Assembly (NCBI RefSeq): GCF_012939955.1
Contig: NZ_SPMY01000032.1
Span: 1 to 54,278, forward strand
DNA from: Candidatus Accumulibacter phosphatis
Lineage (GTDB): Bacteria > Pseudomonadota > Gammaproteobacteria > Burkholderiales > Rhodocyclaceae
Reading direction: 5' to 3'
Length of the DNA: 54,278 bases
In this document: piece after piece, positions 2,308 through 50,464 of the stretch
How positions within the stretch are numbered: the stretch's first letter is position 1
How the letters are laid out: the number at the start of each line of letters is the position of its first letter
Translations under genes and position numbers: made by a program
Notes under the pieces: generated by a model
What the model was told of the DNA's origin: nothing
Database searches by the model: none
The model's input: only the letters and a program-made list of their open reading frames with translations

Positions 2308-2323
2308 ACCTGCGACGCGTCAC

Positions 2324-8177: not shown

Positions 8178-8185
8178 AGAACGCA

Positions 8186-15160: not shown

Positions 15161-15164
15161 TTCG

Positions 15165-15900
15165 TTATTGACAGTAATCCCCAATGCGCTCAGGGCGGTT
15201 TTTTATGTTGCCGAAGCTGTTTTCATCGTACATAAAACTGTTGATGCGATTCAGTATTTCTTGTCTTGCGTCTCTTGCAGGCTGTGTTGGATTTCCGTTG
15301 ATGCCAGAGTGGACTTCCCGAAAATTCTGCAGGTCATTTTGATCCGTGTTGTCTATTCGTTGATTTAGGTCATTCCAGGCTGACCCATATCTCCAATACC
15401 ACGCTCCAACGTCGGCAGCTAGTTGCAAATCAGACGATATTAAAGCATAGTCGGCGATTAAATCATAAGTACTCCCGACAACGGTGTTTAAACTAGGTAC
15501 TTGCCGTTGTACGTAAGGCCTGTAACTTCGATCGGGGCCGCGGGTTAGTTGAAGTGCTGCAACCGTTCCACCTTGCGTTGCAAGGGTGTAGTTACTTCGG
15601 CCAGTAAGATGGAGAAGTCCGCGTCCCCTGAAGTTCGAGCCGTCATGTGTGTTTGGGATGTTTCCATTGCGGTTAGAGTACTGCCGATCAAGGTCCGCCG
15701 CCGTCGCAGCTTCTGAAAGCCATCCGCTTTCATACATCCATTGCAGCCGACCAGTTTCTTCGTAGACGTTCGCCAAAAATGCGGCAATCCTCTTTGGGGT
15801 ATTGATCTCGAAGGTCTTCAGTGCTTCATTAATAGGAGCCACCCACTGGGCCATTCTTTCAGCGTTTGAGTCCATGATCGCCGCCAGAGACTCGGGCGTA
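15165..15900 (-). other. GH19 chitinase/endolysin-like catalytic domain at the end of the giant protein
   Basis: The last 240 or so residues match the bacterial and phage GH19 fold. KRIAAFLANVYEETG corresponds to the helix with the catalytic Glu (usually HES, here EET). NRNGN and FRGRGLLHLTGRSNY form the signature loop, and VGAWYWRYGSAWNDLN and IDNTDQNDLQNF lie in the closing region. GH19 enzymes cut beta-1,4-linked GlcNAc polymers, either chitin or peptidoglycan. The endolysin-like GRGLLHLTGR form favours peptidoglycan, but substrate choice is inference. The His-to-Glu change beside the catalytic Glu is unusual. Confidence 0.75.
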
Positions 15901-18900: not shown

Positions 18901-21900
18901 CTTGCACCGGGGAGGCTCGGGTCGACGGTTTGCAGCAGGCGTTGTACGGTGAGCCTGTGTAGGCCGAGGGCAAGCTGCGCCGGGAGCTCGACTTCGACGG
19001 TCATGCTGCTTGCTCCGGGGGCGACCGCCGCGAGTTCGATCAGCTGCTGCCATAGACGCATGCCTTCGCGCCTGGCTTGACTGTCGGTATCCCAGGCGCT
19101 GGAACTCGCTTTGCCCTGCGCATCGATGCTCAGCTGCTCCGGCGAGACCCACAGGCGCAAGGCCGTTTCCTGTGCCGCCATTCCGGGCACGGCTGCCGCC
19201 TGGAGATTCTCCAGGGTCAGCTGCAGCTTCCCGGAAGCGAGCATTTTGACGTCGCTGATGCGCGGCGAGGGGGTGGCATCAAGGGTGCCCGATCCGCTCG
19301 CGCCGGGTGTGGCGATGGTCAGCGTGAGTTCGCCGTTGGCGAGGCTTTTCTGAAGCGGGACGACCTGGTAAACGCCGCCATAATCGAGCTTGATGGCGTA
19401 GATTTCCGACATGCCGGCGAAGAGGCCGATCAGGTTCGTTGCTCCTCCGGCGCCCGACAAGCCGCCACTGGCCAGGTCGCCGGCCATCGAAATCGCCAGC
19501 GAATTGGTGGTCAGGGCAAAGACGTTGAGGCCGTTGCCGCGCACTGTGACCGCACCGGTTTGATGGTCGCTGCGGGTCTTCACCAGGATGAGATCGCCGG
19601 AACCGCTGACGCCGCTGTACGGCGGGCTTGCGGTGCGGGCGACGAGATGGCCTTGCGCGTCAGTGCCGACGAAGCCGTTGTCAAGCAGCCACCATTTGTC
19701 CTGCATGGCGCCAGTGAGGTCGGGGGCGGTGCCGCGGCGCAGAAACAGGACTTCGTCACCGACTTCGACGCCGGCCTCGTCTTGCAGCGTGATCGCCAGT
19801 TGCACCGGCACGCGGGTTGCCTGCTCGCCGAGTTCGAGACGGAAGGCCGCGAGGGTCTGCAGGATTTCCGCTTCGGGTGCGGCCATTCCCGTTTCGGCGA
19901 GTAGATTGGCGACGCCGATGCGTCGTATCGAGACCACCGCATCGTCCCGCAATGCCCCCGCGCCGATCATCACCGTTTCGCCAGTCGCCGCCTGCACGAC
20001 CCCGCCCTGCTCGGCGGCGATGGTGATGCCGGCCGGGGTGGCGGTGCTCGGGTCGTCGTCGGTCAGTGCGGCGGCTTGCACGCGCAGGCGGATGTCGCTC
20101 TGGCCGATGACCTGTTCGCTGACGCCCCCGTAGGGATCGACGACGCTGGCCAGGTGGACGATCGAAATGTTGACCTCGCCAGCCTGCAGGGCAGTGATCA
20201 GGCCGTCTTCGCTGAGCGTGGCGATACTGGCGTCGGAGACGAGGTAGCGGGTGCCGCTGTACACCGGCGGGGTCGCCGGGATGAGGATTTCGAAGCTCTC
20301 TCCGCTGTCCGGGTCGACGTAGTTCTCCAGGGTTTCCGGTGTGCCGGCGAAGATGGTCTGGCTAGGTGTGTGGATGTCAATCGACTGATCGCCGTTCGGG
20401 TCGAGCAGGCGAACTTTCAACTGCCGTGTGTCGCCCGGCATGAGGGTGAGCGTGCCGGGATAGACGTCGGGCTCGATGGGCGGGCTTTCTTCGCCGGCAT
20501 CAGCACTTTGGCTCTGGCTTTCGCTTGCGTCGTCGCCGCTGTCGGGGTCGAAGGGCAGCGGCGCGGCGCGCACATTGAGCGCCGCGGCGGTCTGGATCAG
20601 GCGCCCATCGCTGTCCACGCGCTGCAGCATGAGCAGCGTCGGGCCGACGCCGGTGGCGTGGACCAGGTCGTGGGCATCGTCGACCAGCACGGGGCTGGGC
20701 AGGCTGCCGCCCAGGCCGGCGAGGTCGGCGGCGCTGAGGGTGAGATAGGTGGGGTCGGTGATGGCAACGGACTGTTCGTCCGCGAAATCGGCGCTCGCCT
20801 GGAGGCGGGCGAACTGGCCACTGACCAGCGCCGGCAATGGCGCGAGATGGATTTGCAGCAATCTTGCGCCGCTGACGTCGATGGTCAGCTCGATGGGTGC
20901 GCCGGCGGCAAAGCCGTCGTCGGCCTGCAGGGTCAGCGTCGCTGCGCCGCTGTAGCCGGCTTCCGGGGTGAAGCTGACTTCCTCGCCGTTGGCTTCGAGT
21001 CTGGCGCTGCCATGGGTGCTGGCGAGAATGCGCCAGAAGAGTGTGTCGCCTTCGAGGTCTTCGGCGATATTGCTCAGGGCGCTGCGCGTGGCCAGGCCGG
21101 TGTGCGTCCTGAGTGCCGCGGAAGCGGCTGCGCTCGCCGCCGGCGCCTGCTTGGCCCTGAAGCCGGTATTGGCGTAGAGGAGCTGGCGATCGGTGCTGCC
21201 GATCTGGCCGTCGCCGTCGATATCGGCCAGTGGGTCTTCGCTTGTGGCGGCTTGTTCCCAGGCCTGGCTGTCCGTAGCGTCGACCTGGCCGTCGCGGTTG
21301 AGGTCACCGGCGACGCTGATGCGCAGTTGTGCGGCGCCGCTGCCGGTGAGGCGAATGAGCTTGGTGCCGGCTTCGCTGACGCGCAAGAGGCGGGTGACTT
21401 TTCCGTCCACGGTGGTACTGGCGATGATCTGGGCGCCGCCGACTTCGAACTGGCCGTCGGCGGGAAGCCGCGTTTCCAGCGCCAGGATCACGGCGCCCGC
21501 GGCGCCCGGGCTGTGGATCGTCGAGGCGATTTCACTTTCGCGCACACTGAAGGCGAGCTGGGCCGCCTGATCGGCATCGAGCTCGCCGCTCCAGGTGCTG
21601 GCCTTGCCGCTGGCCCAGTTCACTACCGCACCAAGATTCGCGGTGATGGGGTCGGTTAGCACCTGCCCCGCAGCATCGTAGGCAATCGCCGTGCCGAAAT
21701 CGCTATCCTCGAGATGGCGGACGAGGATCAAGCGACCGCCGCTGTCGTAGCGGTAGGCAATGGCGGTTTGGCCACCCCTGCCGTCAGGAGCGGTGATGCG
21801 CACGATGCGGCCGGCCTTGTCGCGCTGGAAGTCCACCCGTTGCGTGAAGCCCTCGGCGCCACTCGCGCTGAAGTCATCGCTGACCGCCACGATGCCGGCG

Positions 21901-38300: not shown

Positions 38301-41300
38301 CCGCCGCTGAGTGCAAGGGCGGATGTCGTGATCTCGACTACGCTCAGGTCGGCGAACGGGCTTTGCAGTGCGAAGGCCGTGCTGAGGCTGTTATCGGCGC
38401 GCGTATCGGGTTCGATCGCTTCCTGGTCGGCGTCGGTGCGCAGCGCGAGGAACACCGGCCCCTGGGCGATGAACGGCAGGGTGAGCGTGGCGCTGCCTGT
38501 ATAGCTCTCGCCGTGACGCAGGCCACCGCTGTGCCGGAAGCTGCCGACAAGGATGTCGTCGCCATTGCCGATGACCGTGTCGCGGCTGATGATGAGCTGG
38601 TCGTTCCAGTCGCCGTCAGCGTCGGCGCTGCCGCGGTTGGCGACTTGCCAGTCGATGCTGATCTGCTCGCCGGAGATGCCTGTCGCTGGCGCGGCAAAGG
38701 ATTCGACCTGCAGGTCGGCGTAGGCCGTGCTCGCCGCGAGCAGTTGCACGCTGGCGCTATTGTTGCTCTCGGCGTCGGCCGGGAGGGCAGCAGCGGCACT
38801 GCTTTCGACAAGGACGCCGAGACCGCTACGGTCCTGGTCGACGCTGACGCGAATTTCGAGAGTGCCGACCGCGCGCAAGCCGTCGGGAAGGCGAAAACTG
38901 AAGCTTCGCTCGCGGTACTCGCCGGGAGCGATAGCACCATTCGGCTCGCCCGCCGTGGTGGCGAGTGGGTCGTAGGTGACGCTGCTATCGAGCAGTTGCT
39001 GGGCGCTGTCGAGGTTGGTGACCACGATACGCTCGGGGAACGCACGGGCGGTCGAGCTATCGCCCCTGTTCCAGTCTTCCCAGTGAATGTTCACCCTGCC
39101 GCCGGCCTGGATGTCGGTGTCGTCGCTGCGCAGCACGCGCAGGTTTCTGATCTCCAGATCGGCGCCGACGAGGTGGATCAGTTCGGCTGACTGGGTGCGC
39201 TGAGCAGCGTCGGCGTTGCCGCTGGCCGTGGCCACTACGGTCACTGCGCGTAGCAGGAAGCGTCCGGCAGCGCTGCTGCCGCTCGGCCAGAGCAGGCTCG
39301 CGCTGCGGCTGCGGCTGGCGTCGACCGCCAGCGGCTCTTCGCTCGCCAGATCGTCGAGGACGACGCTGGTGACGAGTTCGCGGGTTGTCAGGTTGAGTAA
39401 CTCCAGGCGCTCGCTCCAGCCGGGCGCGGCAGCCTGATTGCCGCGGTTGACGGTATCCCAAGTAATCCAAACCTCGGCGCCGGGCTCGAAAGCACTGTCG
39501 GCTGCAAAGGCGAGATTTTCGATGTGCAGTTCGCTGGCCGGCGCCCGGACGACGTCGATCTCGATGGAGCGGGCGTTGTTGCGCTCATTGACCCCGCCGA
39601 CGCTGCTTTCGTGGATGACATTGTCGACGTCGGCGATGACCGTTATCCGCAGGCGGCCGGCAGCGCTGTCGTCGGCAGGCAGAGTGAGGGTGTGGCGACG
39701 GCTGCGCGAGTCGCCGGCGGCAAGCGCTCCATTGGCAGACTCGCTTGCGTCGTAGGGGACGTAGACGTCGGCAACGATGCGGCCGCTGTCGAGATTGCGG
39801 ACGACGATGCGCTCGTGCCAGTTGCCCACGGTCGCCTCGCTGCCACGGTTCTCAAGCAGCCACTCGAGGTCTATCGTCTGGCCGGTGCGCAGCTCATCGC
39901 TAGGGGCCACGATGCTGCTGACAGTGAGGTCAGCTGCCGGTTTGGCCCGGAACTCGTCACGAGTCTGTGTGCTTGCCTGCGGCACCAGGCCGAGCTTGAA
40001 GGAAATGGGTGCCGCAGGGTTGGCGGCTGTGCTGCCGCCATCGATCACCAGCGTATAACTGCCGGTAAGCAGGAGTTCCGGCGTCTCCTGATCGACGCCG
40101 CGCAGGCTGTGCCGGTAGACGATCTGTCCCGTGGCGCTGTCGACATGGTCGAAGGCGACACTCGCCACGCCCATGGCGCTGCGCTGGAGAACTGTCCGCC
40201 CAAGCGGGTCGAGAAGTTTCCACTGCGCCACGGCGCGAGCCGCTCCCGAGCTCGACGTGCTGCTGGCGTCCAGCACGTTGAGGAAGTAGCGCTCGCCGGC
40301 GCGCGCCTCGAAACGGAAAGTCTGCGTGCCATCCGCCGGCGCAATGCTGATCGCCGTTGGCGTCTCGCGAGCCAGCAGCGGGCTGCCATCGAGCGTGAGC
40401 ACGCGGAAGCTGCAGCTTTCCGGCGTGCTGATAAAGTTGCGGAGCAGCAGCGTGTAATCGCCGGCGGCGAGCGGGCCGGAATGGTAGCGGGCGTAGTTGA
40501 CCCTGCTTGCATAGGTGTCCGTAGCGGGGTCCAGCATGCGCCGCGCGAAGAGCTGCAGGCCGGCAGGATCGAGGAGTTGCCACCATAGATTGGCACCGCT
40601 GCTCAGGCTGTCGAAGGCGAGGACGCTGGGCTGCTCGAGGTGCAGCGCGTAAGGTGTGCTGCCGTTGCCGTCGACGGTCAGGCCAACAGTGCTGCCGAGG
40701 ACGAGAGGCGGTACCTTACTGGCAGTAGCCGGCGGGGTGCGCAGCGTGAAGGCGTAGGGTCGATCGTGGGCGGTGTCGGCAGCGCCGTCGATCAACAGCA
40801 GGTATTCGCCGGCCGCCATCGCCAGCGGGGAGCCGTGGCTTCTGGCGTCACCATCGGCTTGCTGTACGCCATCGGCCGAGAGCAGGCGCCAACGCAGAGC
40901 ACTGGCGGAGCCCGCGTCGCCGTCGAAGACGAAGGCGCGCCTTTCGGGGATGCTGAAGCGATAGCTGTCGACGACGCGGCCAGCGGACAGCTTGCCACTG
41001 CTCGGGGTGTCCGCGAGCAGGCGTGCTGCGTCGCCGAGGGCGTCGGTTTCACTGAGCGCGAAGCGTAGCTGTCTGGCCGCCAGCTCGCTGGAGACATCCC
41101 GCAGTTCGAGGATGTAGCTTCCTGCTGCGGGGAGCTTGATCGCGCGTGGTGCAGTGTTGACGGTATTAAAGGTGTTGGCTGTGTCCGAGCTGTCGGCGGC
41201 ATACACTTGCCAGCCGGCGGCGCTGCGGACCTCGGCATGGGCGGCGAAGTTCGCACTCAGCGGGCTCAGCCATAGTGTCGCGGCGTCGCTGGTCGTGAAG

Positions 41301-44300
41301 CGAAAGGCGAGCTTGCCGCCAGCGTCGAGCGTCGCAGTTACGATGCTGTTCAATGTCAAGGCTGGCGCGGGTCCTCCAGCGTTCGAGACAGTGAAGGCGA
41401 AGTGGCGGTTTGTCGCGCCATCGCCAGTGTTGGTGTCGCTGCCATCATCGCGGAGCAGGAAATAAGTGCCGTTACGGGCGAGGGGGCCGGCACTACCGGT
41501 GCCTTGTCCACGCGCCAGCTCCTGCCCGAATTCGTCGAGCAGCCACCAGCGCTCGCTGTCGCCGGAATGTTGTTCCAGCGTCAACCGGTCGCCAGCGGCG
41601 GCAATGAAGTTGAAGACCGCGACCTGGCCGGTCAGGCGCTCGCCGCTGATCGAAGCACCCATGCTCAAGGGCTGTGCCTGCGCCAGGTCGAGTAGTTTGA
41701 AAGCGAAATCGTCGCCATGCCGGAGATCTGTATCCGCGGTAAAAGCAAGGTGATAGCTTCCTGCCGGCAATTCGATGAGCGCTAGTGGATCGTCGAGACT
41801 TGCCGCGCTGGCCAGCCTCCCCTGGTCGATCAGTTGTCCTTCGCGAGAAATCCGCCAGGTGAAAGCGGCACTGTCGCTTTCGCTACGGGCCAGGTCGAGC
41901 AGCACGCGCGTCGCCGTCGGTACGCTGAAGCGATAGACCGCGCTGGCGGTGGCGGCGAAAGCTTCACCACCGACCTGTTCGCCAAGCGCGATTAGCTGTG
42001 TCGTTTTCAGCGCGAAGCGGTACTCCGCCTCTCCGCCAGCCGCCGACTGCTGCTCGCTGTCCCAGACGAGGAAGTAGTGTCCCGGCGGCGGTGCTGTGAC
42101 AGTCGTCCTTGGTTCGTCGAGAGAGCCCGCCGCGACCTGGGCGCCGTCGCTACGGAGCAGGCGCCACCAGCCGTACAGTCCGCCGAGCTTGCCGGGCTGG
42201 TAGTCGAGGGGCGTCCCTGCGGAAAGATCGACGGCGTAGATGGCCGCTTCGCCGGCCTGCAGGCGACCGTAGACAGCTGTGTTGAGCGACAGGGTGGGTA
42301 CCGTGGCGAGGTCGAACAGGCAAATGGCGTAGGCCGTATCGCCGCTTGGCGCAGCGATCGTCTGCACCTCGATACGGTACTCGCCGGCCTCAAGATCGAG
42401 CGGCTCCTCGGGGCGTGCTGCCGTGTAGGCGTCGATCGTTCGCAGCCATGTGCTTCCCTCGTAGAAGAGAATTCGCAGCGGCGAGTCGACTTTTGCCACA
42501 TCGAGGTAAAGCAGCTTTCTCTCGGTCAAGCGAAGGCGATAGCTGTGTTGCGCTTCGCCGGTGTCACTTGCAGGCAGTTGGCCTTCGATACGGCTGTTGA
42601 GCACGATCGGTGGCTGTGGCCGTTCGATGGAAATGCTCGGGTCGCCAGCGAAATCACGGCGTCTCACGAAGTACCAGCTGCTGTCCTGCGATGGCACAAA
42701 GCGCAGCACCGCGCCGTCGGCAAGCAAGTGCGCCTGCAAAAAATCCGCTCCGTGAATCGACCATTCGCTTCCGTTCGCGGCCTGGAGGAGATACTCGGCA
42801 CCGGCCGCGAGATCGACTCGATACATGCTGGCGCCGGAGTCGGAGTCGCCGAAGCTGATCAGCTCGCCGATACCGTGCCCGGCAACTACCTGGATGGCGT
42901 TCGTGCCGCTGTCGACCCGAACAGCGATGCTTCCGCCCGGACCATAGTCGAGCGACACCTCCAGCGTGTAGTCGCCGGCGGCGAGTGTCAGCACATCGGT
43001 GCTGGCCTCGTCGCTATTCCAATAGCCATGGTCACCAGTAAGCAAGCCGGCCGCGTCGCGCAGTACCCAGTGCGCTTCCCATGCGCCATCGCTGCCGCCG
43101 GTGTGACCCTTGATTAGCGCGAGGGCGTTCTGGTCGAGGGTGAAACGAAAAGCCTTGCTGGTCGCGCTGCTGTCGTCCAGCGTGTCGCTATGTTCCAGGC
43201 CCAGCACGAGAGGCACGCTGGCGAGCGGCATTTGCTCATCGCCAGCGTCCCGCCTTGCCACGATGGTGTAGTTCACGGTGCCGGCAAGATAGTCGCCGCC
43301 AAAGAGGACGAGGGTGTAAACACCGGACTCTTCGACCGTCTCCTGCAAAGCGCTGCCGTCGCCGAGCCAGTGCTTGGCAAGGCGGCGACCGAGCGGGTCG
43401 AACAGGGCAATGCTGACGTCGTTGTAGCCATAGCGGTCGAAGCGCCTGGCGCTACTTATTTCGACTGTCAGCAGCTCGCCGGCTCGTGCCTGCAGGTAAT
43501 AGATCTGCGTCTGCTGTTCGCCGGGAGCCAGGGTGCCGGCGACTTCCTCTTCGGGCTCCAGGAGCGGGTAGTCGGCACCCGCGGTGTTCAGCAGGCGGAA
43601 GCTGAAGTCATACGACGCATCGCGATTGCCTGGCCACGAACTGGTGTAGAGCCTGAGTACGTAGTCACCCGGTACGAGTTCGAGCAGGTCGTGGTCCCTG
43701 CTGCCCAGATGGCTGTCGGCCAATTGCTGATCATCTGCGTTGCGCAGGTGGTAGTCGACATCCCATATTTCCGACAAGGCCTCGACGACAATGCGGCTGC
43801 GCTCAGTCACCGAAAAAGTGTAGGTGAGCGAATAGAGGTTCGACGCGTCCAGGCTGACCGTGCGCACTTCGTCCAGTTGCAGGGTCTGCGGGGCCGACGC
43901 GGCGAGGGTGATGGGCGTGTTCAGCGCACCGCTGGCCGCGCGCTCTGGTTGTCGCTTCAGTTCGAGGGTGTAGGTGCCAATGTCGCCTGACAGCTCGATC
44001 GAGGTGTTGGCGCCGCTTCCCTGTGCGAGCAGGTCGAACCAGCTATCGAAAAGCAGCCAGCTGAGTTCTTCGGCCGGCTCCTCGGCTGACTCCGTGTCGA
44101 TTTCGAGGCGAAGGTATTGTCCCTCCAGGGTCGAGTCGAATCGGAACACCTTGACCTGTTCGCCGCTTGCGAAGCTGGCCGGCGTTTTGCCGATCGACAA
44201 TTGCGGCACGTGATTCAGGTCGACCAGGTGCACGCTGAAGGCGGCGCCGCTCTCTGCCGACAGGTCCAACTCGTAGTTGCCGGCGGACAGATACATGGTG

Positions 44301-47300
44301 TAGGGCGAGTCGGCTTCCCGCTCGTCGTCACCCGGCTGAGCCGGGCCAAGAGGGAGCCAGTCGCCGGAATCGGGAGCGTCGCGCGCGTCGCGGATTCGCC
44401 ATTGCACGCCCGCGTCCGAACCCTGGTCGTGGATCTGGAGATAGGTGCCTGTGGGTACATGCAGCCTGTAGCTACGCATCCCTTCGTCATCGGTGAGACG
44501 CCCGGAGAATCGATCGCCAGGAATCAGGGGCATCGGCGACAAGGCGAGGCTGAAGTCAATACCGTCCCCGGCGTCGGCTTCGTCCTTACTTTCAGCGGCG
44601 CTGGAAAGGATGACCATGAAGCGTCCGGCTTCGAGTTTGCCAAGGTCAACGAGGTGATGCATCGCGGCGCCGCCGTCGTCGAAGTCCGGATCGTCGCCGC
44701 CATGCACTTGCCGACCGGCGGCGTCGTAGATTGCCCAGCGGACGGGCGACGCGCTGGCGGTGGCGATCTGCAGCTGATGATCACCAGCCCTATGGACATC
44801 GTAGTGGTAGAGGACGGCGTTGCGAGCATTCGTCAGCCGGCCGTTCGTTCCCGTCGCGGAGAGTGCTTCCGTGTGTTCGGAGGCGAGCAGTTGCAGGCGG
44901 TAGGTGGCCTGGTCGGCTGTCGCTTCGATGATCAGCACGTAGTCACCAGCGCCGAGCAGTTCCTTGTAGCTGGCGTCGTCGTCGGGCCACCAGACAGTCG
45001 GGCCGGAATCTGCGCCGGCGGCTAGCAGACGCCAGCGGATGTCGCGCGAGCCGGCATCGTGTACCCAGGCGTGCGTCGGCAGGGTGGCAGCGAAAGGCAG
45101 GCTGACCCGGTAGCGGACGCGGTCGCCCGAGTGCGTCAGGACGCCATCCAGGGTTTCATCCGGCTGCGTGTGCGAGAGGCTCGCCTGGTGGATCCTTAGC
45201 TCATAGTCGAGCGAGATCTCGAAAAGCGGGTCGATTTCCAGGACCAGAAAGCTTTCCCCGTCGGTGGTGCTGTCCAGCTCGATCTGCTTGCCGATCGGAA
45301 GCGCGGAGTCGTCAAGCAGAATGCCGTTAGCGTCGTAGACGGTGAGCCTGCCTGCTGCGCTGTCACTGCTGCGGGCCGCAACCGAAAATGGCCGGCCATC
45401 GTTCACCGGCGGTACGCGAAAAATTTGCGCGCCGCTGCCGGCGTCCAGGGTTCTGCGTATTTCCTCGTCCGGCGCCAGCGTTTCGGCCGCGCCGACGTCG
45501 AGCAGGCGGAAAGCGTAGGGGCCGAGATCTTCGATCTGGTCGGCTTCCACGGCGAAGGTGTAGGTGCCTGCATCGAGGGCAAGAAAGGCATTGCTGTCGC
45601 AGACGCCGGAGGCGAGAAGCGAGCCGTCGGCGGCGCGCAAGGTCCAGCGGTTTCCGGAAGCGGTGAGTCCGTCGAAGAGCAGGCGTGTCGACCAGTCGAG
45701 CGAGAGTTGCCATTGATCGGCAAAGTCGGGAAGCCGGGTGTTTCCAGCGGCCTCGCTGCCAACGGTCAGTGTCGCGACCTCGGAGCTGACTAGTGTCGCC
45801 GCATAGCGCAGCATCAGCGGCGCGTCGTTGGCGCCCCTGCCGACGACGATCAAGAGGTATGTGCCGCTGCGCGGGAGCGTCGTTGCGATCGCTGAGTCGC
45901 TGCTGCCGGCGGCAGTGTTGAAGATGCTCCGCAGGTCGTCGGTGGCCAATAACCGCAGCGATGCCGCGCCGTCGCTCAGTCTGAGGACATCGAGGCTCAG
46001 GCGGTCGCCGGCTGTGCCGTCGATGCGGAAGAGTCGCAGGCGGCTGGCGGCGTCGAAGAGCAGCGTCTGCGTGCTATCGAGAGGCAGGGTTTCGGCCTGG
46101 CCGGCATCGAGCAGGCGGAAGCGGAAGTTGTCGGTGCTGGCAAAGCCAGGAACGATGCGCAGGCGATAGAGGCCGGCAGCGTCCAGCCGGATCGGCTGGA
46201 CGGTGGCATGGCCACCAAAACTATGGTTGTTGTGGATGAGGCCGACCGGTCCACGCAGCTCCCAGCTCAGATTGTCGCTATCACTCAGGGCATCCAGAAC
46301 GAGTATTGTCGGTGCGTCGATCGAAAACACGTATTCGCGAACCAGACCGGGCTGATCGATAACTCCGGAGACTTCGCTGCCAAGCACGATTTCCTGGCTG
46401 CGGACCAGCAGGCGGCGCAGGACGAACTCATAGAATTCATAGGTATCGCTCGGGTTGTCCGTGCTGTTGTCGATTTCCTGGCCGTCGACGACGAAGGTGT
46501 AGCTGCCGGCCAGCAGTTTGAAGAGTTCATTACTCTCCGACATGCGGCCGCTGACCCGTGCTCTGCCGAGGCTGTCGAGTATGCGCCAGTCGCCGTCGCG
46601 CGTCGGCGTGATGGTCGGCGTGAAGATGAAGTCACTGTCCTCGTCGACGCGCAGCGAGAATGCCTGTGCCTCGCTTGCCGGGCTAAGGGTCAGTGGGACG
46701 AAGCTTTCGAACGGAAGGAGAGGCAGGTCGGCCGTGTCGAGCAAGCGAAAGCTGAAGCTGCCGGTGGCCAGGGTGGGGCTGGATACGTCGAATTTGTAGT
46801 TGCCGGCGGGCAGCGACAGCACGCTGGAGCGCGTAGTGGCGAAGCTGTTCAGCGGCGCGTTGCCAGCAGCGCCGTTGAGCGGCGCTTCCACGCCGCGCGG
46901 CCCACTCAATCGCCACACGAAATCGCTAGCGTCGGCGCCGCTAGTTTGGCCCGTGTCAATCAGCAGTGAGCTCGGTGCCGTGAGCGTGAAGCCGTAGCTG
47001 ACGCCTTCTCCCGCGCGTTCGATGCTGCCGAAGCTGCGTTCGTTGAGCGTCAGCGGTGCCGCACGGGAAGTCGTCAGGGCAAAGGCGAAGGCAATGGGGC
47101 GTGGCGAGGAGTCCGGCACCTCGTAGCCGAAGTCGGGAAACACCGCCAGCAGATATTCGCCGCTACTCGGCAGCTCGGTTTCCGTGACGCTCGCGCGGAG
47201 AGTGGCCAGCGGGCGGCTATAGGGATCCCACAATTGCCAGGAGACTCTCTGATTGGCGTCGCCAGTGAGCTGGAGTTGGGAGACGATGCTGTGCTGGCCG

Positions 47301-50300
47301 GCCTCTGCGGTAAAGCGGTACAGACGCGTTTCACCCGCGGGGATCGTTTCGTTGATGCTCGTGCCCGAGGGGAGGTCGATGGCGGCGTCGGCATTCAGCA
47401 CGCGGAAGCGGTATTCCGCGACCTGCGGGCTGAAAGTGTCCAGGGTCAGCAGGTAGTTGCCAGGCGCCAGGCGAAGAATCTGCCCCTGATCGTCGCGGAA
47501 GGAAGTCCATCCCCGTACCGTGCCGAGCGGACCGGCAAGCATCCAGCGGGAGGATGGCGCGCTCGGGGGACCACTCAAGGGACCGCTCAGGGCATCAAAG
47601 ACGAGGGTGCTCGCCTGGTCGAGGGTGAAACGATATTCGGCGACACTGCCGACTTCGGCCGAGCCGACGCTGATCGGGCGGTTGAAGACCAGCGCCGCGC
47701 TGACTTTGCTCTGTCGGGAAAGCGTGAAGCCGACATTTGACGCGCCTTTGGCGCCGTAGTAGCCATCGTTGAGCAGCGTGTAGCGGCCAGTCGTGGCGAT
47801 GTTGATGCTGGTCGTGATGCTCGCGCCCGAGGCCGCCGCGACCTGGCGTCCGAAGGGGTCGAGCAGACGCCAGACGCCGCCAGCCGAATCCACGGCGTTC
47901 AGGATCAGGGTGCTGCCGGCCGTCGCGGAAACGCGGTAGCCGATTGTCGAGGCGGCTGCCACGCGCATGGTCACCACTCGCTGGCCGAGCGCCAATTCCT
48001 CGAAGCTGCCACTGTCGAGCAGACGGAAGGCGTAGGCGCCGTCGCCAATGACACTGCCTGTTGCGGCGCTGCCTTTGACGGTCAGGGCGTAGTCTCCTGC
48101 CGGCAGATTCAGGAGTGGGTTGGCGTCGGCGTCGTCGCTGCGGTAAAGGGGGCGGTTCTCGACTTCGCTGCCGCGTGGCCCTTGCAAGGACCAGATGGCG
48201 CTGCTGAAGCCACCCTGTGTGTCGAACACCAGTTGACGGTCGTCGGAGAGCGTGAAGCGATAGGTCCGGGTGGCTTCGGCCGTGGGCAGCAGGCCGGCAA
48301 GCATCGTGCCGAGAGGCGCGGGCTCACCGGTGGGCAGTTCGACCAGCTCCAGCTGACCGATGCGCTTGAGCTGGAAGCCATAGTCGCGGGGCGTCGTCGC
48401 ATCGAGGCGCCCTTCGAGGAGCAAGGTGTAAGCGCCGTCGCTGCTCAGCAGCCGGGCGTCGGAACTGTTGCCGGCAGCCGGTAGGGCGGTGGGTGCGCCG
48501 ACGTCGTGGCCGAAACGGTCGACCAGCCGCCAGATGACTTCTTCGCCACTGCTGTCACTGTCGCCGCTACTGCCACTCATGTTCTCGAGGGCGATCTGGT
48601 CGCCGGCCTCGGCAAGGAAGCGATAGGCGTGGGTGCTGTTGCCGGGGGGCAGGGCGATGCTGCTGCTGTCATCGAAGGCCAAGGCGGGCGCGGCCGCGAG
48701 ATCGAGCAGGCGGAAGGAAAACTCGCCGCTGGCGGCGGCTGTGCCGTGCACCGTCAGCTGGTGCTCACCGGGCGGCAGGGTGAGGATACCGAGGTGGCTG
48801 GCGGACGTGCTGGCGCCGCTATCGTCGCTATCGTCGAAACGCCGATCGCTGACCTCTTTGCCGCGCGGTCCGGCCAGTGACCAGACGATATCGGCGCGCA
48901 GACTCTGCGCTTCGAACGCTACTTGCGTTGCCTCGGCCAGATCGAAAGTGAAGATCGTCGACTGGCCAGCGCTGGCGATGGCTTCGGAAATGGTCTCGCC
49001 GAGGGTCAGCGTCCGCGTCACATCGGGGACTGCGTGCAGCGAGAATTCGTAGGCGAGCGCCACGTCGGCGGCGTTGTTGTCCGCGCCATCGAGCAGCAGC
49101 CAGTACTCGCCGCTCGATGGCAGCGTAAATGGTCGGGTCATGGTGACGGGATTCGCCGCGGCGCTGAAATTTCCGGCCGCGACTCGCACTCCCCAGGGGT
49201 CGACCAGCCGCCAGGCGAGTGAGCCGCCGGCGACCGAGCGCGGCTCAAGGAAGAGCTTGTCGCCGGCATTGAGCGCTATCTTGTAGATCTGCGACGCGGT
49301 GGCCTGCTCGAGCTGGCCGCTCGTTACGGCGTTCGCGACGAGCTCCGGCGCCGCGTCGGCGGCGAGCAGGCGGAAAGGGAAACTACCCGTGCCTGGGCCG
49401 TCGAGGTCGACCGACAGGGTATGGCTTCCGGGCGGCAACAGCAGTCGCTCGCCGCCGTCGAAGAGCGCGCTTTGCCCCGCCACCCGGCGCGTGACCTGCT
49501 GACCGGCCGGCCCGCTCAGCGACCAGGCGAAGCCGGCGTTGTTCAGGCGGTCGAAAATGACCGGTGTCGTATCGTCCAGAGCAAACTTGAAGTGAGCGAC
49601 CTTGCCGGGCTGGTCGATGTGGGCGATCTGCGTTTCGCCGATGCGCAGTGGCGAGACGCTGTCGACCACCGCTTGCAGGGTGAAGTCGTAGGTCAGCGCT
49701 GCCTGATTGGCGATAGCGCCTTCGAGCAGGAGCAGGTATTCGCCGCTGTGTTGTACGGTGAAGCGCGCGCTATCGTGCCGGGCATCGAAGCTGACGCCCT
49801 CCTGGCGGCCAAAGGGGTCGAGCAGGCGTCCGAAAAGCGCAGCGGCGGCGGGCGTCGTGGCCTTGAAAGTGTAGCTGTCCCCGGCGCTGGCACGGAAGCG
49901 GTAGGCGGCGCTCTGGTTGCCGAACTCGAGCACGCCGCTGACCGGCGTGTCTGGGGCGATCACGCTTGCCGAAGCGGCGTCGATTACGCGCAGCGAGTAG
50001 GCGCCCAGCGCGTCCTGCGCGCCATCGACCCGCAGCTGGTAGTGGCCGGGCGTCAGATCGTAGGCTGGCGGACTGCTGTATGGGGAATCGGTGGCGCTGA
50101 AAGACCTCTGCCCTAGCAGGCCGCCGGGACCGTCCAGGCGCCAGCTCAGGTCGCTGCAATTGCTCAGGCTGTCAAGGACGACACGGCTGGCTTCATCGAC
50201 GGTGAACCGGTAGTAATCCTGCTCGCCGGGAACGTCGATGCTGCCGGCAAGAGTCATGACTCCTGCGGCGGGATCGCCGTCGAGAAGAATGCGCGGTTCG

Positions 50301-50464
50301 AGGGCCTCGAAATGGAGCTTTGCCGTCGCAACTTCGCGTTGCCTGCGTGTGGCTGCGAGCTTTATTGGCGCTGGCTGCGAGGGCGGCTGCTCACCGGGCA
50401 GCAGGCCGCGATCGGGAGCGTCGGGAGCGTCGGGAGAAGGGTTCCTGCCTGTGGACTTGCGCAT
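26042..50464 (-). CDS. Giant LEPR-XLL surface protein, N-terminal two thirds: PPC-like and CARDB repeat arrays
   Basis: The ATG at 50464 is preceded by GAGGGGG with seven-base spacing, so I prefer it to the TTG at 50500. The frame stays open for about 8140 residues. The N-terminus is hydrophilic and reaches FEALEPRILLDGD, the LEPR-XLL motif found at the start of very large surface proteins. There is no ordinary signal peptide. About thirty alternating PPC-like sandwich repeats follow (xxxDxLS...WxLxGPxG and WRLLDPFGR...SGxYxLLLDG), then 23 CARDB repeats, one further PPC-like and one IPT/TIG-like domain (VDIEGAHFKPGALVKL), a region of unknown fold, a propeller-like segment (about 27950-26900) and an Ig-like domain. 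After LPAMLKP at about 26350 the frame turns to nonsense and the true continuation lies in the frame that ends at 15165. One missing base at about 26336-26345 explains this. The complete protein would have about 11,766 residues. How it is exported is not shown. Confidence 0.85.
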   Translation of the reverse strand: MRKSTGRNPSPDAPDAPDRGLLPGEQPPSQPAPIKLAATRRQREVATAKLHFEALEPRILLDGDPAAGVMTLAGSIDVPGEQDYYRFTVDEASRVVLDSLSNCSDLSWRLDGPGGLLGQRSFSATDSPYSSPPAYDLTPGHYQLRVDGAQDALGAYSLRVIDAASASVIAPDTPVSGVLEFGNQSAAYRFRASAGDSYTFKATTPAAAALFGRLLDPFGRQEGVSFDARHDSARFTVQHSGEYLLLLEGAIANQAALTYDFTLQAVVDSVSPLRIGETQIAHIDQPGKVAHFKFALDDTTPVIFDRLNNAGFAWSLSGPAGQQVTRRVAGQSALFDGGERLLLPPGSHTLSVDLDGPGTGSFPFRLLAADAAPELVANAVTSGQLEQATASQIYKIALNAGDKLFLEPRSVAGGSLAWRLVDPWGVRVAAGNFSAAANPVTMTRPFTLPSSGEYWLLLDGADNNAADVALAYEFSLHAVPDVTRTLTLGETISEAIASAGQSTIFTFDLAEATQVAFEAQSLRADIVWSLAGPRGKEVSDRRFDDSDDSGASTSASHLGILTLPPGEHQLTVHGTAAASGEFSFRLLDLAAAPALAFDDSSSIALPPGNSTHAYRFLAEAGDQIALENMSGSSGDSDSSGEEVIWRLVDRFGHDVGAPTALPAAGNSSDARLLSSDGAYTLLLEGRLDATTPRDYGFQLKRIGQLELVELPTGEPAPLGTMLAGLLPTAEATRTYRFTLSDDRQLVFDTQGGFSSAIWSLQGPRGSEVENRPLYRSDDADANPLLNLPAGDYALTVKGSAATGSVIGDGAYAFRLLDSGSFEELALGQRVVTMRVAAASTIGYRVSATAGSTLILNAVDSAGGVWRLLDPFGRQVAAASGASITTSINIATTGRYTLLNDGYYGAKGASNVGFTLSRQSKVSAALVFNRPISVGSAEVGSVAEYRFTLDQASTLVFDALSGPLSGPPSAPSSRWMLAGPLGTVRGWTSFRDDQGQILRLAPGNYLLTLDTFSPQVAEYRFRVLNADAAIDLPSGTSINETIPAGETRLYRFTAEAGQHSIVSQLQLTGDANQRVSWQLWDPYSRPLATLRASVTETELPSSGEYLLAVFPDFGYEVPDSSPRPIAFAFALTTSRAAPLTLNERSFGSIERAGEGVSYGFTLTAPSSLLIDTGQTSGADASDFVWRLSGPRGVEAPLNGAAGNAPLNSFATTRSSVLSLPAGNYKFDVSSPTLATGSFSFRLLDTADLPLLPFESFVPLTLSPASEAQAFSLRVDEDSDFIFTPTITPTRDGDWRILDSLGRARVSGRMSESNELFKLLAGSYTFVVDGQEIDNSTDNPSDTYEFYEFVLRRLLVRSQEIVLGSEVSGVIDQPGLVREYVFSIDAPTILVLDALSDSDNLSWELRGPVGLIHNNHSFGGHATVQPIRLDAAGLYRLRIVPGFASTDNFRFRLLDAGQAETLPLDSTQTLLFDAASRLRLFRIDGTAGDRLSLDVLRLSDGAASLRLLATDDLRSIFNTAAGSSDSAIATTLPRSGTYLLIVVGRGANDAPLMLRYAATLVSSEVATLTVGSEAAGNTRLPDFADQWQLSLDWSTRLLFDGLTASGNRWTLRAADGSLLASGVCDSNAFLALDAGTYTFAVEADQIEDLGPYAFRLLDVGAAETLAPDEEIRRTLDAGSGAQIFRVPPVNDGRPFSVAARSSDSAAGRLTVYDANGILLDDSALPIGKQIELDSTTDGESFLVLEIDPLFEISLDYELRIHQASLSHTQPDETLDGVLTHSGDRVRYRVSLPFAATLPTHAWVHDAGSRDIRWRLLAAGADSGPTVWWPDDDASYKELLGAGDYVLIIEATADQATYRLQLLASEHTEALSATGTNGRLTNARNAVLYHYDVHRAGDHQLQIATASASPVRWAIYDAAGRQVHGGDDPDFDDGGAAMHHLVDLGKLEAGRFMVILSSAAESKDEADAGDGIDFSLALSPMPLIPGDRFSGRLTDDEGMRSYRLHVPTGTYLQIHDQGSDAGVQWRIRDARDAPDSGDWLPLGPAQPGDDEREADSPYTMYLSAGNYELDLSAESGAAFSVHLVDLNHVPQLSIGKTPASFASGEQVKVFRFDSTLEGQYLRLEIDTESAEEPAEELSWLLFDSWFDLLAQGSGANTSIELSGDIGTYTLELKRQPERAASGALNTPITLAASAPQTLQLDEVRTVSLDASNLYSLTYTFSVTERSRIVVEALSEIWDVDYHLRNADDQQLADSHLGSRDHDLLELVPGDYVLRLYTSSWPGNRDASYDFSFRLLNTAGADYPLLEPEEEVAGTLAPGEQQTQIYYLQARAGELLTVEISSARRFDRYGYNDVSIALFDPLGRRLAKHWLGDGSALQETVEESGVYTLVLFGGDYLAGTVNYTIVARRDAGDEQMPLASVPLVLGLEHSDTLDDSSATSKAFRFTLDQNALALIKGHTGGSDGAWEAHWVLRDAAGLLTGDHGYWNSDEASTDVLTLAAGDYTLEVSLDYGPGGSIAVRVDSGTNAIQVVAGHGIGELISFGDSDSGASMYRVDLAAGAEYLLQAANGSEWSIHGADFLQAHLLADGAVLRFVPSQDSSWYFVRRRDFAGDPSISIERPQPPIVLNSRIEGQLPASDTGEAQHSYRLRLTERKLLYLDVAKVDSPLRILFYEGSTWLRTIDAYTAARPEEPLDLEAGEYRIEVQTIAAPSGDTAYAICLFDLATVPTLSLNTAVYGRLQAGEAAIYAVDLSAGTPLDYQPGKLGGLYGWWRLLRSDGAQVAAGSLDEPRTTVTAPPPGHYFLVWDSEQQSAAGGEAEYRFALKTTQLIALGEQVGGEAFAATASAVYRFSVPTATRVLLDLARSESDSAAFTWRISREGQLIDQGRLASAASLDDPLALIELPAGSYHLAFTADTDLRHGDDFAFKLLDLAQAQPLSMGASISGERLTGQVAVFNFIAAAGDRLTLEQHSGDSERWWLLDEFGQELARGQGTGSAGPLARNGTYFLLRDDGSDTNTGDGATNRHFAFTVSNAGGPAPALTLNSIVTATLDAGGKLAFRFTTSDAATLWLSPLSANFAAHAEVRSAAGWQVYAADSSDTANTFNTVNTAPRAIKLPAAGSYILELRDVSSELAARQLRFALSETDALGDAARLLADTPSSGKLSAGRVVDSYRFSIPERRAFVFDGDAGSASALRWRLLSADGVQQADGDARSHGSPLAMAAGEYLLLIDGAADTAHDRPYAFTLRTPPATASKVPPLVLGSTVGLTVDGNGSTPYALHLEQPSVLAFDSLSSGANLWWQLLDPAGLQLFARRMLDPATDTYASRVNYARYHSGPLAAGDYTLLLRNFISTPESCSFRVLTLDGSPLLARETPTAISIAPADGTQTFRFEARAGERYFLNVLDASSTSSSGAARAVAQWKLLDPLGRTVLQRSAMGVASVAFDHVDSATGQIVYRHSLRGVDQETPELLLTGSYTLVIDGGSTAANPAAPISFKLGLVPQASTQTRDEFRAKPAADLTVSSIVAPSDELRTGQTIDLEWLLENRGSEATVGNWHERIVVRNLDSGRIVADVYVPYDASESANGALAAGDSRSRRHTLTLPADDSAAGRLRITVIADVDNVIHESSVGGVNERNNARSIEIDVVRAPASELHIENLAFAADSAFEPGAEVWITWDTVNRGNQAAAPGWSERLELLNLTTRELVTSVVLDDLASEEPLAVDASRSRSASLLWPSGSSAAGRFLLRAVTVVATASGNADAAQRTQSAELIHLVGADLEIRNLRVLRSDDTDIQAGGRVNIHWEDWNRGDSSTARAFPERIVVTNLDSAQQLLDSSVTYDPLATTAGEPNGAIAPGEYRERSFSFRLPDGLRAVGTLEIRVSVDQDRSGLGVLVESSAAAALPADAESNNSASVQLLAASTAYADLQVESFAAPATGISGEQISIDWQVANRGSADADGDWNDQLIISRDTVIGNGDDILVGSFRHSGGLRHGESYTGSATLTLPFIAQGPVFLALRTDADQEAIEPDTRADNSLSTAFALQSPFADLSVVEITTSALALSGGSADIRWSVRNDGNAISDQALWHDRVLLSSDTSLDPSDIIVANVPHAGTLAPGESYLGAVTVTLPGVLSGAYFVLVDSDANRRVAENGRTGNNRAASVTPLSITQKPVADLAVSEVVGPTILRPGENTSISYRTQNVGNAPVGTTDTDHPVNTPWRDRIYLDQGAAGLRELASVFNSGSLAAGAMVSRTASFTLPPSTAEGEFRWLVIVDSDDSVEELDATNNRSASMATVRIVRSDLAITHLDYPGPLQSGSTLHLEWAVENHGAAALGPWTDRITLTHDGVSVLVTERLHSGPLDAGASYLGSADLLIPIDFLGDYELIVVSDANAQLAERSRSNNRVAAPLQVHLAPYVDLVVGALTLDPEGALQPGETVTAHWLTSNAGNKAAAGPWSERLELRNAETLSLLATVDLASDGPLAAGASRSRSTQFTWPSGAAAAGRFLLRVIADAGGQLAEANPARNAETNNSAELLRVTGPDLLPGNLRVEPADVGDIEAGATLTLAWEIRNEGGSATDAVFNERIRVRNIDTDVVILDTHLAFDPLSMVDGQPAGPLQPGEPRQRHFNFTLPQGHQGSGRFAITLTTDQSQTGVGAVFEHNPQGDAEDNNSAGVTFYSASRDYPDLRVEAANAPPGSVGGELAEVSWSVANRGTVDADGGWNDQIILSTDALIGNGDDLVIGSVRREGGLRVGESYTQSASVRVPLRSAGAYTLGIRTDSAREAEPDPAADNFSSALPFELITPMVDLTVVSVDTPSMARSGEEVSISWQVRNLGNATTDRADWNDRLVLSTDTSVSNDDLVVAGSLVHSGALGPGEDYRGQATLILPRDLDGDYFVLVETNANRRVNEGGRSSNNSAASAAALAIRLTPTPDLTVSDVLGPNALRPGDLASVSYTLSNSGAAPSSGAWRDRIFLEDSAGMPREVASVFNSAVLAAGDSVTRSASFTLPTSLPDGEWRWLVKTDSDDSVYERGAENNNLARASDTLRVARVDLSVHVSDPAPLLSSGAVLHVEWQVRNAGGVALGSWSDQVFLAPTDGSAPAQRLAEIVRQGPLASGTSYDAVADIVVPLDFSGAYDLIVVSDAGNAIGDGQRSNNRSTASLQIELSPYADLAVSAVSAPQTLIADPARLTVAWTVSNQGTGAGRFSSWSDRVLLSRDDILGNADDLLLGDYRHDGALAAGESYSRSEDIPLAARSSGRFRLFVVSDAGNEVFENHAEANNIAYLEHPLDVMPVAYADLQIAAVTSAGLAASGRPLTVSWEVFNDGIGSTDSSEWSDQVWLSRNADGSGLVAQFGPARHIGQLAVGARYARSLEVVLPEGISGTHYLNVRTGGPFEFVFTDNNSGHSLPLPVELSRSPDLQVESLVAPASAQEGALIDVSWSVVNQGDADANGSWVDSVWLLPASGSGQPIALGSFSHQRSLAAGTRYTRTEQLRLPTKVEGLYRLKLITNARLGESNASGEQIYEHGEARNNNSLLAAATTAIGLNARPDLRVTSVIVPEQITAGTATAIRFTIGNFGAALANGRWTDKIYLSLDGTLSGDDRLLGEMANAGALAPGESYASETALLDIPIRLRSDAFLIVVADGSFKLDEYPNDANNAYAAHFTVTAVPFADLVSSAVVAPDQAVHGASIEVRYQVSNHGSAMTRGDSAALDRWTDTVWLARDKLRPGAHKGDLLLGSFSHVGHLGVGDSYLASVRVSLPDALPSGEYFLSVWSDTYDVILEDTLATNINADDPSQIDNNNYQARAISVLGTTPPDLQVSELVAPATVAIGASYSFSYRVENRGDAFDGSWTDSVYLADSADWQTASEVWHLADYAQTRSLGFGEGYSVSQTLQLAPWIKGRFLILRSDSGKRVAESDDGNNARATASQLEAEAADLRVTAVSAQPDDGGDGGDADDANNAPHFSGEETTLTWTVTNFGGPVWSGTRSWVDSLYLSRDPSFIAARAIPLGSVVHANVGGLASNASYTATARLRLPVGADGEYYVYVITDAESDSGDPSRRRARLELSSGGSLAGSSAWYGGANQAPGSVFEGPRNDNNLGRGTLTISYREPDLQIDNIALALAEGQSEAFSGQPLTISWTVSNRGNRETRRSSWVDGIYLSRDASLDYADHALQTYAVQLNDKGQPKTLRPGESYTASITTALPASISGDFHILVSTDTAIFADPYSSGTSSIRADLPPLARFGDAAGTVLEFAAEGNNLAATPLSISLATPPDLQLVEVLAPERVVAGQDFSVSYRVVNAGGDTPGDQGRWYDLVYLSRDRYLDIRQDRYLGYLEHSGGLAAAASYDATRVLTAPQQMEGPWYVFVISDPANAWGGGEFGRLREFGGEQNNALAAVQPLLIEVPPPADLVVTNLVMPGSAGVGEPIRIDFSISNQSSNPAWGRWTDAIYLSADNEWDLGDQLLGKLDHDSGASGLAANASYDGTLSASLPPLKDGNWRLIVRPDLYNEVFEGSISYSAATGLSLPPGEANNRSASGGTLQVSVPAMQIGTPLQTTLSPGQARLYKVAVAAGETLRVSLIADTGADADDGSNELYLRYGEVPSGYAFDAAYERPLAADQEVWLPSTQAGDYYLLLRSRQGAANTPVTLRADLLPLSITHISPDQGGGGEQDNSDDSSSSSNSARRWVSVDIEGAHFKPGALVKLTRPGVHEVEPERWQVLDATHIRAVFDLHGVPLGLYDLSVINPDGQRVTEAQRFLVERAIEADVTIGIGGPRTLTPGENGLYSVSLQSLSNVDTPYVRFDLGVPEMGYSDEVLNGIALPYLVVGSNVGGRPDGVSLDAAGNTQTYGPTPTSGTSRPDIPWASLDGALNTDGINLLPGYALDVAAGGYVGMSFNVQTYPGLAEWLAYDFDGLRDKLYALRPEWKEQGLLDGGVQDLERIAEGLAQKFLARNPDEHLLKIEQLAMPFRFDISGAATPLTRDEFVAEQVVHATRLRAAILADAAAPASLAALAADPTQWIAGWLGALEAAGLLRPLDEAPPIRSHPKVVSLNSTLASGILLAHGGDAYRTQGDLLGFFATVQNWYGDTAAFAGDPEATAAPVDYDEYRQSLAGFVEIPVPVTAERADYDRQASQATHFINFNVFAGGLGELEYLRHIGVLDADFKPVPGQALDLTRYLQQAASESAASAALLSVRGPQAALGSDGNSYVPGATPLPYALDFSTPGGAPAGQMRLLTQLDASLDARSFRLGDLKLGDINVHLPAGKASFQGDFDFSGSKGFVLRVSAGIDVATRTATWLLQAIDPQSGEVLHDASRGLLAAAAGEPSDSSAPQRASLSYTVSASDSAASGVDIVSIARLFIDQAPPIDSERNLVKLDADAPRTTLAVTALGDSAQDAPLFDVRWQADDTVLAAGSGDNGDDSGGTASAGAASGVKSVTVYVAEDGGEFRIWQRQVEPTIGQAIFTGSAGKRYEFLAVATDRAGNREAASVARAVLPDDGARQEILDAIGVNESLAQTAELPLAAIDRSYPSNALFAEAARLLPGHVASSQSSDLRSVLAPFSLRGFAAGYAASDADIGAQALVELADHSFLASAGAERNQMFHLARNGGPTTTDAVNTTASGLTPLLTLDAPILDMAIDRFGQLWLTTGAELLQLDAASGQIIERQRGPGGDPLTHALAIDPSSGKIYISSGNGIEIFDPNASDRARAWQHFSNQRVGDLAFSADGRLWGVKWSGGEIAGAQLQASSEIVSFPLDGRSAGRAELEYRLAGVVDRIAFGAVGSALDGLLFASSNLRQRAVGAGTTSTPQQSPLWMIELDSRRALQVASGGSRGESVVATADGRLLVAQTTGIDEISRHRAPLVQAITVPDGALVPLPLTHIGVVFDQAMWLGTTADGAVAADARSVLNPANYTLTPLSALGAESAAAGVQRQPQAVRWDAQSRSAWLEISGLSAGEYQIDIAASLQSAAETPLQNAYASRFTALADMSSRLQLNFSNTRANRASGEISYEVSVTNIGSDDIRGPLLLLLDAGHYFADAIVAPKLPAMLKPRQPRPLQACNAPRCGPSTSAPRCRRLAAASPSARRSPARPCASRQVANLRRAPAWSSCSKRILGTASTLSRRTIYRQAWRSPTGSTASNYRRQGSARNGA
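30870..39950 (-). repeat. Array of 23 CARDB-type repeats in the giant gene
   Basis: I counted 23 repeats that start with the pattern (A/P/V)DLxVxxVxAP...G...WxVxNxG...W.D.(I/V)xLS.D, from ADLTVSSIVAP near 39940 to ADLVVTNLVMP near 31265. CARDB domains are adhesin-like Ig-fold modules found in bacterial and archaeal surface proteins. They give length and possibly binding surfaces. Repeats 2-7 and 8-13 form a duplicated six-repeat block. Confidence 0.85.
34991..39541 (-). repeat. Tandem duplication of a six-CARDB block (two units of about 2.3 kb)
   Basis: Block A (about 39541-37253) and block B (about 37252-34991) contain six CARDB repeats in the same order with matching idiosyncrasies. In each, the second repeat carries a long insert (DPLATTAGEPNGAIAPGEYR versus DPLSMVDGQPAGPLQPGEPR), the third has GxWNDQ(L/I)I(I/L)S, and the fifth opens with GPxxLRPGxxxSxSY. 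The blocks have diverged, so this is an old unequal duplication. Confidence 0.7.
39960..50250 (-). repeat. Array of about thirty alternating PPC-like repeats in the giant gene
   Basis: Repeats of about 105 residues alternate between two types. Type A has YxFxLxxxxxxxxDxLS...WxLxGPxG...LxxGxYxLxV...FRLLD. Type B has YRFxAxAGDxxxL...WRLLDPFGRxV...SGxYxLLLDG. The pair period is about 215 residues and most type B units end in LxLGE or LxLGS. The pattern resembles bacterial pre-peptidase C-terminal (PPC) domains, which are secreted beta-sandwich modules that often bind ligands. Confidence 0.75.

Follow-up and report, generated by a model that had tools for sequence, protein, structure and literature searches.

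The window, a whole contig of 54,278 bases (C35) in a 5.04 Mb genome of Candidatus Accumulibacter phosphatis, carries on its minus strand a very long gene that appears in the ORF list as two overlapping frames, 26042-50500 (8152 aa) and 15165-26321 (3718 aa). The earlier note had read these as one chain with a single one-base break over 35.3 kb, ending at 15165. That description holds for most of 15165..50464, and gives way at 15.19-15.24 kb, where further frame changes occur. Proteins of same-genus relatives align with the window in frame one from ~50464 to 26378, in frame two from 26372 to ~14530, and in frame three from ~14448-14289 to 11233 (Table 1). Frame changes of the window gene are thus placed close to 26.37 kb, within 15.19-15.24 kb and within 14.3-14.5 kb, with a return to the former frame by ~14.95 kb; read against homologues, an Ig-like stretch at ~14520-14954 on the minus strand is back in the earlier frame, and the closing residues of the second-frame piece appear to be out of frame. 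Because homologues align past 15165 in other frames, the ORF listed at 11230-14172 (start 14172) is the C-terminal part of the same gene. Its third-frame tail and metzincin motif resemble those of two relatives, G009 and G001. Taken together, the alignments indicate that the giant gene is real, that its true end is at about 11,233 and not 15,165, and that it encodes a conserved giant protein of approximately 10,000 to 13,000 residues, the window copy being broken in this assembly.

Table 1. Features of the giant gene in the window (positions in the 54,278-base contig)
Feature	Position	Strand	Remarks
N-terminal piece	26378..50464	-	one frame, 8029 aa; LEPR-XLL start, PPC-like and CARDB-like repeats
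LEPR-XLL (LEPR-8K, NF012209) motif	50246..50317	-	NCBIfam match; no membrane-spanning stretch nearby
First frame break	26357..26378	-	homology switches frame
Second-frame piece	15168..26372	-	3735 aa; Big_9, He_PIG and Cadherin-like repeats, dockerin-like stretch, GH19 at end
Dockerin type I match	21177..21311	-	24.6 bits, cut-off 22.9
GH19 endolysin-type domain	15168..15917	-	predicted fold, pLDDT 80; Glu pair and GRG motif
Broken stretch	14300..15240	-	frame change near 15.2 kb, stop at 15165, additional stops
C-terminal piece	11233..14289	-	third frame; metzincin, Ig-like domains, conserved tail
Metzincin zinc motif (HExxHxxGxxH type)	14116..14148	-	11 residues

With several frame changes and stops at ~26.4 and 14.3-15.2 kb, the window copy might be a decaying pseudogene, the protein being made by other strains only. 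A related copy in a complete, single-contig genome of the same genus (G015) has indeed lost its middle part to an unrelated insert: approximately 2370 residues are replaced by ~7.7 kb (G015:C1:2852015-2859718) encoding a C5 cytosine methylase, an NYN-domain protein and a DUF4062 protein, perhaps a mobile or defence insert. Against decay, the reading frames between the breaks are still long and intact, and the break positions differ among the window, G009 and G001, as assembly errors could make them. We regard decay of this copy as a serious possibility that falls a little short of even odds, and a conserved gene broken in this assembly as the better reading.

The N-terminus of the chain contains the LEPR-XLL motif proposed earlier (residues 50-73 of the frame from 50464), which scores 29.7 bits against a cut-off of 17. 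Hydropathy near the motif reaches a 17-residue maximum of 0.95, with no hydrophobic stretch; among 30 LEPR loci examined, our pattern found the motif in 27, and only 3 of those 27 exceed a hydropathy of 1.6. The Pfam matches are CARDB, PPC and DUF11 for the first frame and, for the second, He_PIG, Big_9, Cadherin_5 and dockerin, in agreement with the PPC, CARDB and He_PIG domains that had been expected and adding Big_9 and Cadherin to them. The expectation of more than fifty repeat domains is likewise borne out by a lenient count: profiles built up iteratively on repeats of the gene itself, with a permissive domain cut-off, give ~66 sandwich-type repeats over the three in-frame pieces (53, 10 and 3), and the curated models of Pfam give a smaller number. 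RTX and PEP-CTERM had both been described as absent, and neither turned up at the thresholds used: Pfam lists no RTX family at E 0.01, and Pfam and NCBIfam place no PEP-CTERM family on the window pieces scanned, despite an adjoining XrtA locus. No CdiA/B-type family (TPS domain) is among the Pfam and NCBIfam matches of the giant-gene pieces either.

The XrtA/PEP-CTERM exopolysaccharide locus adjoins the giant gene at window positions 366-10480, with TIGR03108 just under its cut-off and TIGR03097 over it. A link between the two was rejected, as proteins of this locus were not found at E 1e-8 in the flanking stretches of eight same-genus relatives, a check that had no sequence on that side for G018 and ~2 kb for G014. 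On the 5' side of the giant gene lies a MarC gene, which also sits beside the giant in three relatives.

For the enzyme domain that closes the second frame, Pfam lists no family, GH19 included, even at E 10, whether the final 300 or the final 800 residues are searched, and NCBIfam gives no GH19 match. Sequence and profile comparisons do find relatives: phmmer aligns the region with the PWe2 endolysin (E 5e-13), a PHROG endolysin matches at E 8e-28, and a profile search reaches the endolysin 9eoi at E 1.9e-33. Two Glu residues, which by their position we take to be the catalytic pair, and a GRG motif are invariant in 14 of 14 aligned sequences. The predicted model (pLDDT 80, pTM 0.81) retrieved endolysins as all four of its best Foldseek matches (E 2.6e-6 to 1.2e-5). 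By the score test that the earlier note had set for itself, the GH19 assignment thus fails with the Pfam model; it stands on profile, catalytic residues and predicted fold, which together point to a domain of the GH19-endolysin type. It shares predicted fold, Glu pair and GRG motif with the endolysins of PWe2 (9ms7), phage KTN6 (gp46, 8p8e), P. aeruginosa (9eoi) and SPN1S (4ok7), and differs from them in being embedded, in relatives, in a chain that exceeds 10,000 residues and in its lack of a Pfam GH19 match.

The GC content of the GH19 stretch (window 15168-16067) is ~50%, against 67-70% in the rest compared, and the same is seen in G018, G009, G001 and G016; in G014 the corresponding values are 0.60 and 0.72.

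The placement of GH19 at the far C-terminus, also proposed earlier, could not be upheld. The chain continues past this domain in all 12 aligned same-genus homologues, and the domain looks terminal in the window only because a stop follows one of the frame breaks. What follows in the same chain is a protease-like domain with a metzincin zinc motif. The Pfam match to PF00413 is marginal (24.6 bits, cut-off 24.0, residues 2-31 only) and the fold model is poor (pLDDT 59.8); a metzincin profile matches karilysin at E 7.5e-6, and HExxHxxGxxH together with the Met of the Met-turn is invariant in 17 of 17 aligned relatives. Our pattern recovered the metzincin motif in 25 of 34 loci examined, with the frame continuing beyond the motif in every one of the 25. 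Where metzincin motif, GRG motif and a closed end are all present, the chain runs 815-1301 residues past the metzincin motif (11 of 11 loci).

A first genome scan with the GH19 end of the window alone gave 32 pattern matches, none of which was confirmed. The 300-residue GH19 end has strong matches in 14 of 28 same-genus genomes (the window's own included), weak matches in short frames in 2 more and none in 12. Four relatives encode the entire order LEPR-XLL, GH19, metzincin and stop in single frames: G014 (9924 aa), G016 (12768 aa), G017 (10252 aa) and G025 (10104 aa), so that single-frame homologues within Ca. Accumulibacter span 9,924-12,768 aa; the giant of G018 runs off its contig after 12528 aa. 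The N- and C-terminal parts lie in separate frames in five relatives (G001, G009, G011, G015 and G023), and the G023 locus includes a run of unknown bases. One very long LEPR-XLL chain, as the earlier note had proposed, is therefore what several orthologues encode in a single frame, with five others split or gapped. By sequence comparison the giant protein is conserved far beyond chance within the genus.

Outside the genus, the isolates Azotobacter beijerinckii (11444 aa) and Dyella tabacisoli (13248 aa) encode giants with both GH19 and metzincin; those of Methylibium rhizosphaerae (11772 aa) and D. flagellata (11381 aa, running off its contig) have the metzincin and no GH19 match. Some isolate rows sit in the search profiles and so match partly by construction, the GH19 of Dyella tabacisoli not being among them. 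The aligned sequences indicate a family present in Ca. Accumulibacter and in certain other members of the Beta- and Gammaproteobacteria. The genome of the window also carries a second LEPR-XLL giant (G000:C55:1290-35081, 11264 aa, running off the contig) that has no GH19 or metzincin match.

How such a chain might leave the cell had been left as an open question, and the neighbourhoods of the relatives offer a candidate answer. In Methylibium the giant gene is followed directly by TolC-like (199.1 bits, cut-off 225.2), HlyD, M50 and short SecA genes. The giant gene of Dyella tabacisoli has a short HlyD gene directly before it and, ~6 kb past it, HlyD-GAF, M50-HlyD and short SecA genes. A corresponding gene set is found in the genome of the window on another contig (G000:C53, 17397-24206); it includes a SecA_DEAD match and a PqqD-M50-HlyD fusion protein in which PqqD (28.8 bits, cut-off 23.4) and HlyD_3 (29.2, cut-off 22.2) pass and M50 (21.5, cut-off 27.2) falls below, the M50 of Methylibium being above. 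PqqD passes the Pfam cut-off in this protein only; two Dyella proteins are just below (19.7 and 22.8), and Pfam found no PqqD domain in the Methylibium fusion protein.

The order HlyD-GAF, fusion, SecA-like, short HlyD on one strand occurs in 14 of 19 neighbourhoods, and a SecA-like gene, with a short frame of mostly 660-843 aa, in 17 of 19. The exceptions are G041 and G018, without the short HlyD; G046, with the short HlyD on the opposite strand; G052:C2, without the SecA-like gene; and G030, with a different order. The fusion stretch of G018 also has no SecA-like gene, one being found farther along the contig. In 9 of 22 genomes the fusion gene has a LEPR start no more than 10 kb away. No TolC gene was detected beside the operon in the 19 stretches at E 0.05; TolC-like genes are present elsewhere in the genome of the window, and one is near the operon in G165.

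The presence of these genes follows that of LEPR-XLL across genomes. In a sample of 61 relatives from 34 genera, 28 of them of one genus, we counted a fusion gene as a full-length M50-HlyD profile match at E<1e-170, a cut of our own choosing; 21 genomes have both LEPR and fusion, 2 LEPR only, 1 fusion only and 37 neither, and the 5 genera (of 34) that have LEPR are also those that have the fusion. A second, short SecA (265-349 bits) is present in exactly the 22 fusion genomes of this sample, other second-SecA matches scoring less than 25 bits, apart from a split gene in G003. The fusion-only relative (G006) has fragments of the GH19 and metzincin module at its contig ends. Of the LEPR-only relatives, one (G012) is an 820-contig assembly, and in the other (G019) the LEPR frame has only 235 aa. 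The count depends on the cut: at E<=0.001 some fusion-profile match is found in 55 of 61 relatives, mostly over the HlyD part, and three genomes with no LEPR (G007, G048 and G051) have weaker fusion matches (4e-44 to 2e-57), which speaks against a strict link. Eleven genomes picked via GH19 or metzincin matches divide into 7 with both and 4 with neither, the fusion profile having been built from 3 of those 7.

Across a class sample of 274 genomes, with at most four candidates scored per genome, E<1e-100 gives 16 with both, 3 LEPR only, 6 fusion only and 249 neither, and E<=1e-30 gives 17, 2, 19 and 236, respectively. Three LEPR-positive class genomes have no strong fusion gene (G147, G284 and G295), again against the link. 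Among the fusion-only class genomes, G165 has a LEPR start directly after the fusion gene and G329 a variant LEPR start (RLESQERRILFSAD) after the operon; no LEPR start was seen for the other four in the short stretches examined.

Two side observations concern the edges of this pattern. LEPR-like starts, one of them a variant, lie beside or near export genes at L278 (14820-19427) and L282 (near 1482) in genomes scored LEPR-negative, and are followed by what we take by eye to be DUF4347-like sequence. In G019, a 98% complete genome with the LEPR motif at G019:C96:129120-129185 in its 235-aa frame, there is no full-length fusion match and no second SecA, as if the substrate had decayed along with the exporter.

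Fisher values for the link between LEPR and fusion are 4e-13 (61 relatives) and 2e-18 and ignore ancestry. Since one genus dominates the sample of relatives and the p-values take no account of the tree, the association could be a mere by-product of shared ancestry and genome size. That the same 5 of 34 genera carry both genes across the order, that the class sample divides 16/3/6/249, that the genes are direct neighbours in several genera, and that a control exporter shows no link all argue otherwise, and we consider a by-product very unlikely. The control, an LssB-type ABC exporter of type I secretion scored over its cut-off, is present in 6 of 23 LEPR-positive and 11 of 38 LEPR-negative genomes.

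The giant and its putative exporter share parts with several described systems. Named LEPR-XLL proteins (NF012209, LEPR-8K) have in common with it the N-terminal motif above cut-off and a very long repeat protein, and differ from it in the GH19 and metzincin module near the C-terminus and in the link to a SecA-like gene set. Accessory SecA2 systems tie a second SecA paralogue to particular surface proteins. The Dyella SecA-like protein matches SecA2 models below their cut-offs; here, unlike in those systems, the host is Gram-negative, the SecA frame is short, and it is encoded with HlyD adaptors and an M50 protein. PqqD/RRE maturation of RiPPs combines a PqqD-like leader-binding domain and an M50 protein in one pathway, and the Dyella protein matches the daptide M50 model NF041824 (E 4.6e-41, 141.2 bits, cut-off 300). 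The M50 part here differs in being fused to an HlyD-like part, with the giant protein as its proposed cargo. The giant cell-wall-degrading proteins of Omnitrophota, which belong to another phylum, are likewise described as joining a very long chain to a wall-degrading domain.

Type I secreted giant adhesins, LapA among them, are the nearest parallel for the very long Ig-like spacer, and the proposed exporter shares HlyD and TolC type parts with their export. They differ from the present case in that the giant has no RTX match and that a SecA-like ATPase and a PqqD-M50-HlyD protein replace the linked ABC exporter. Ordinary type I (ABC) secretion could nevertheless export the giant, with the SecA-like set only travelling along or serving other LEPR proteins. 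HlyD and TolC are themselves type I parts, and giant repeat proteins are classical type I cargo by established knowledge and by PMC8277102, which describes SiiE as a type I secreted giant adhesin. PMC10868602 describes a LEPR-XLL protein of Vibrio that carries RTX at its C-terminus, so the motif is not necessarily tied to a single route. In the giant itself no RTX family matches, and LssB is below its cut-off in the genome of the window (best match 355.8 bits, cut-off 693.1) and has no association with LEPR. This control suggests a weaker case for type I export within the LssB-type ABC family that it covers, PrtD and HlyB being other families. We think type I export of the giant improbable, and favour export by the SecA-like gene set.

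We propose the following route. PqqD-like domains are the leader-peptide binders of RiPP pathways, M50 proteins are membrane proteases, HlyD and TolC build conduits, and SecA drives chains with ATP; from these known roles and the gene link, LEPR-XLL is likely an export leader. The PqqD-like domain of the PqqD-M50-HlyD membrane protein would bind the LEPR-XLL leader, the short SecA-like ATPase would drive the chain, and two further HlyD-type adaptors and a TolC-type channel would take it across the envelope, with possible trimming of the leader by the M50 site. Outside the cell, the sandwich array would act as a spacer, and GH19 and metzincin would act on neighbouring cells, debris or matrix. 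The gene family, its architecture, the conservation of its motifs, and its co-occurrence and neighbourhood with the export genes were computed here; the signal role of LEPR, the order of steps, the energy source, the substrate and the biological purpose we infer from them.

The two enzymes might instead serve the producer itself, by making room in its own wall or by processing the fibre at release. Many envelope machines carry a dedicated wall hydrolase, as is well established, and the protease follows the hydrolase in one chain; an HlyD-TolC conduit would not obviously need wall cutting, and the GH19 domain is closest to endolysins, mostly of phages. Such self-use seems to us somewhat unlikely, and action on other cells or material the better reading, though roles in self-processing or in the matrix are also conceivable for the fibre.

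On balance we lean towards a conserved giant surface or secreted protein that is exported by a dedicated machine whose genes lie at another place in the genome (G000:C53). We would give about even chances to the broader idea of an undescribed class of Gram-negative secretion, in which LEPR-XLL is the leader and a truncated SecA paralogue, not an ABC transporter, powers the export of proteins longer than 10,000 residues via a PqqD-M50-HlyD receptor/protease, HlyD adaptors and TolC, yielding fibres with wall- and protein-cutting enzymes. In the open PMC literature, surveyed by titles and the starts of abstracts, we found no paper on a system of SecA, HlyD and M50 or on giant proteins of Accumulibacter.

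LEPR-XLL giants have so far been named in NCBIfam by their motif, and a gene set that follows them across the class gives this motif a testable job. As most sampled genomes with such giants also carry the SecA-like gene set, it may be the answer to the export question and suggests a way for chains longer than 10,000 residues to pass both membranes; cultured hosts are available. Accumulibacter forms dense aggregates in phosphorus-removing sludge. An enzyme of the GH19 endolysin type beside a protease would suit an attack on cells and debris, or their use as food, in such aggregates, where these fibres could matter for aggregation or competition.
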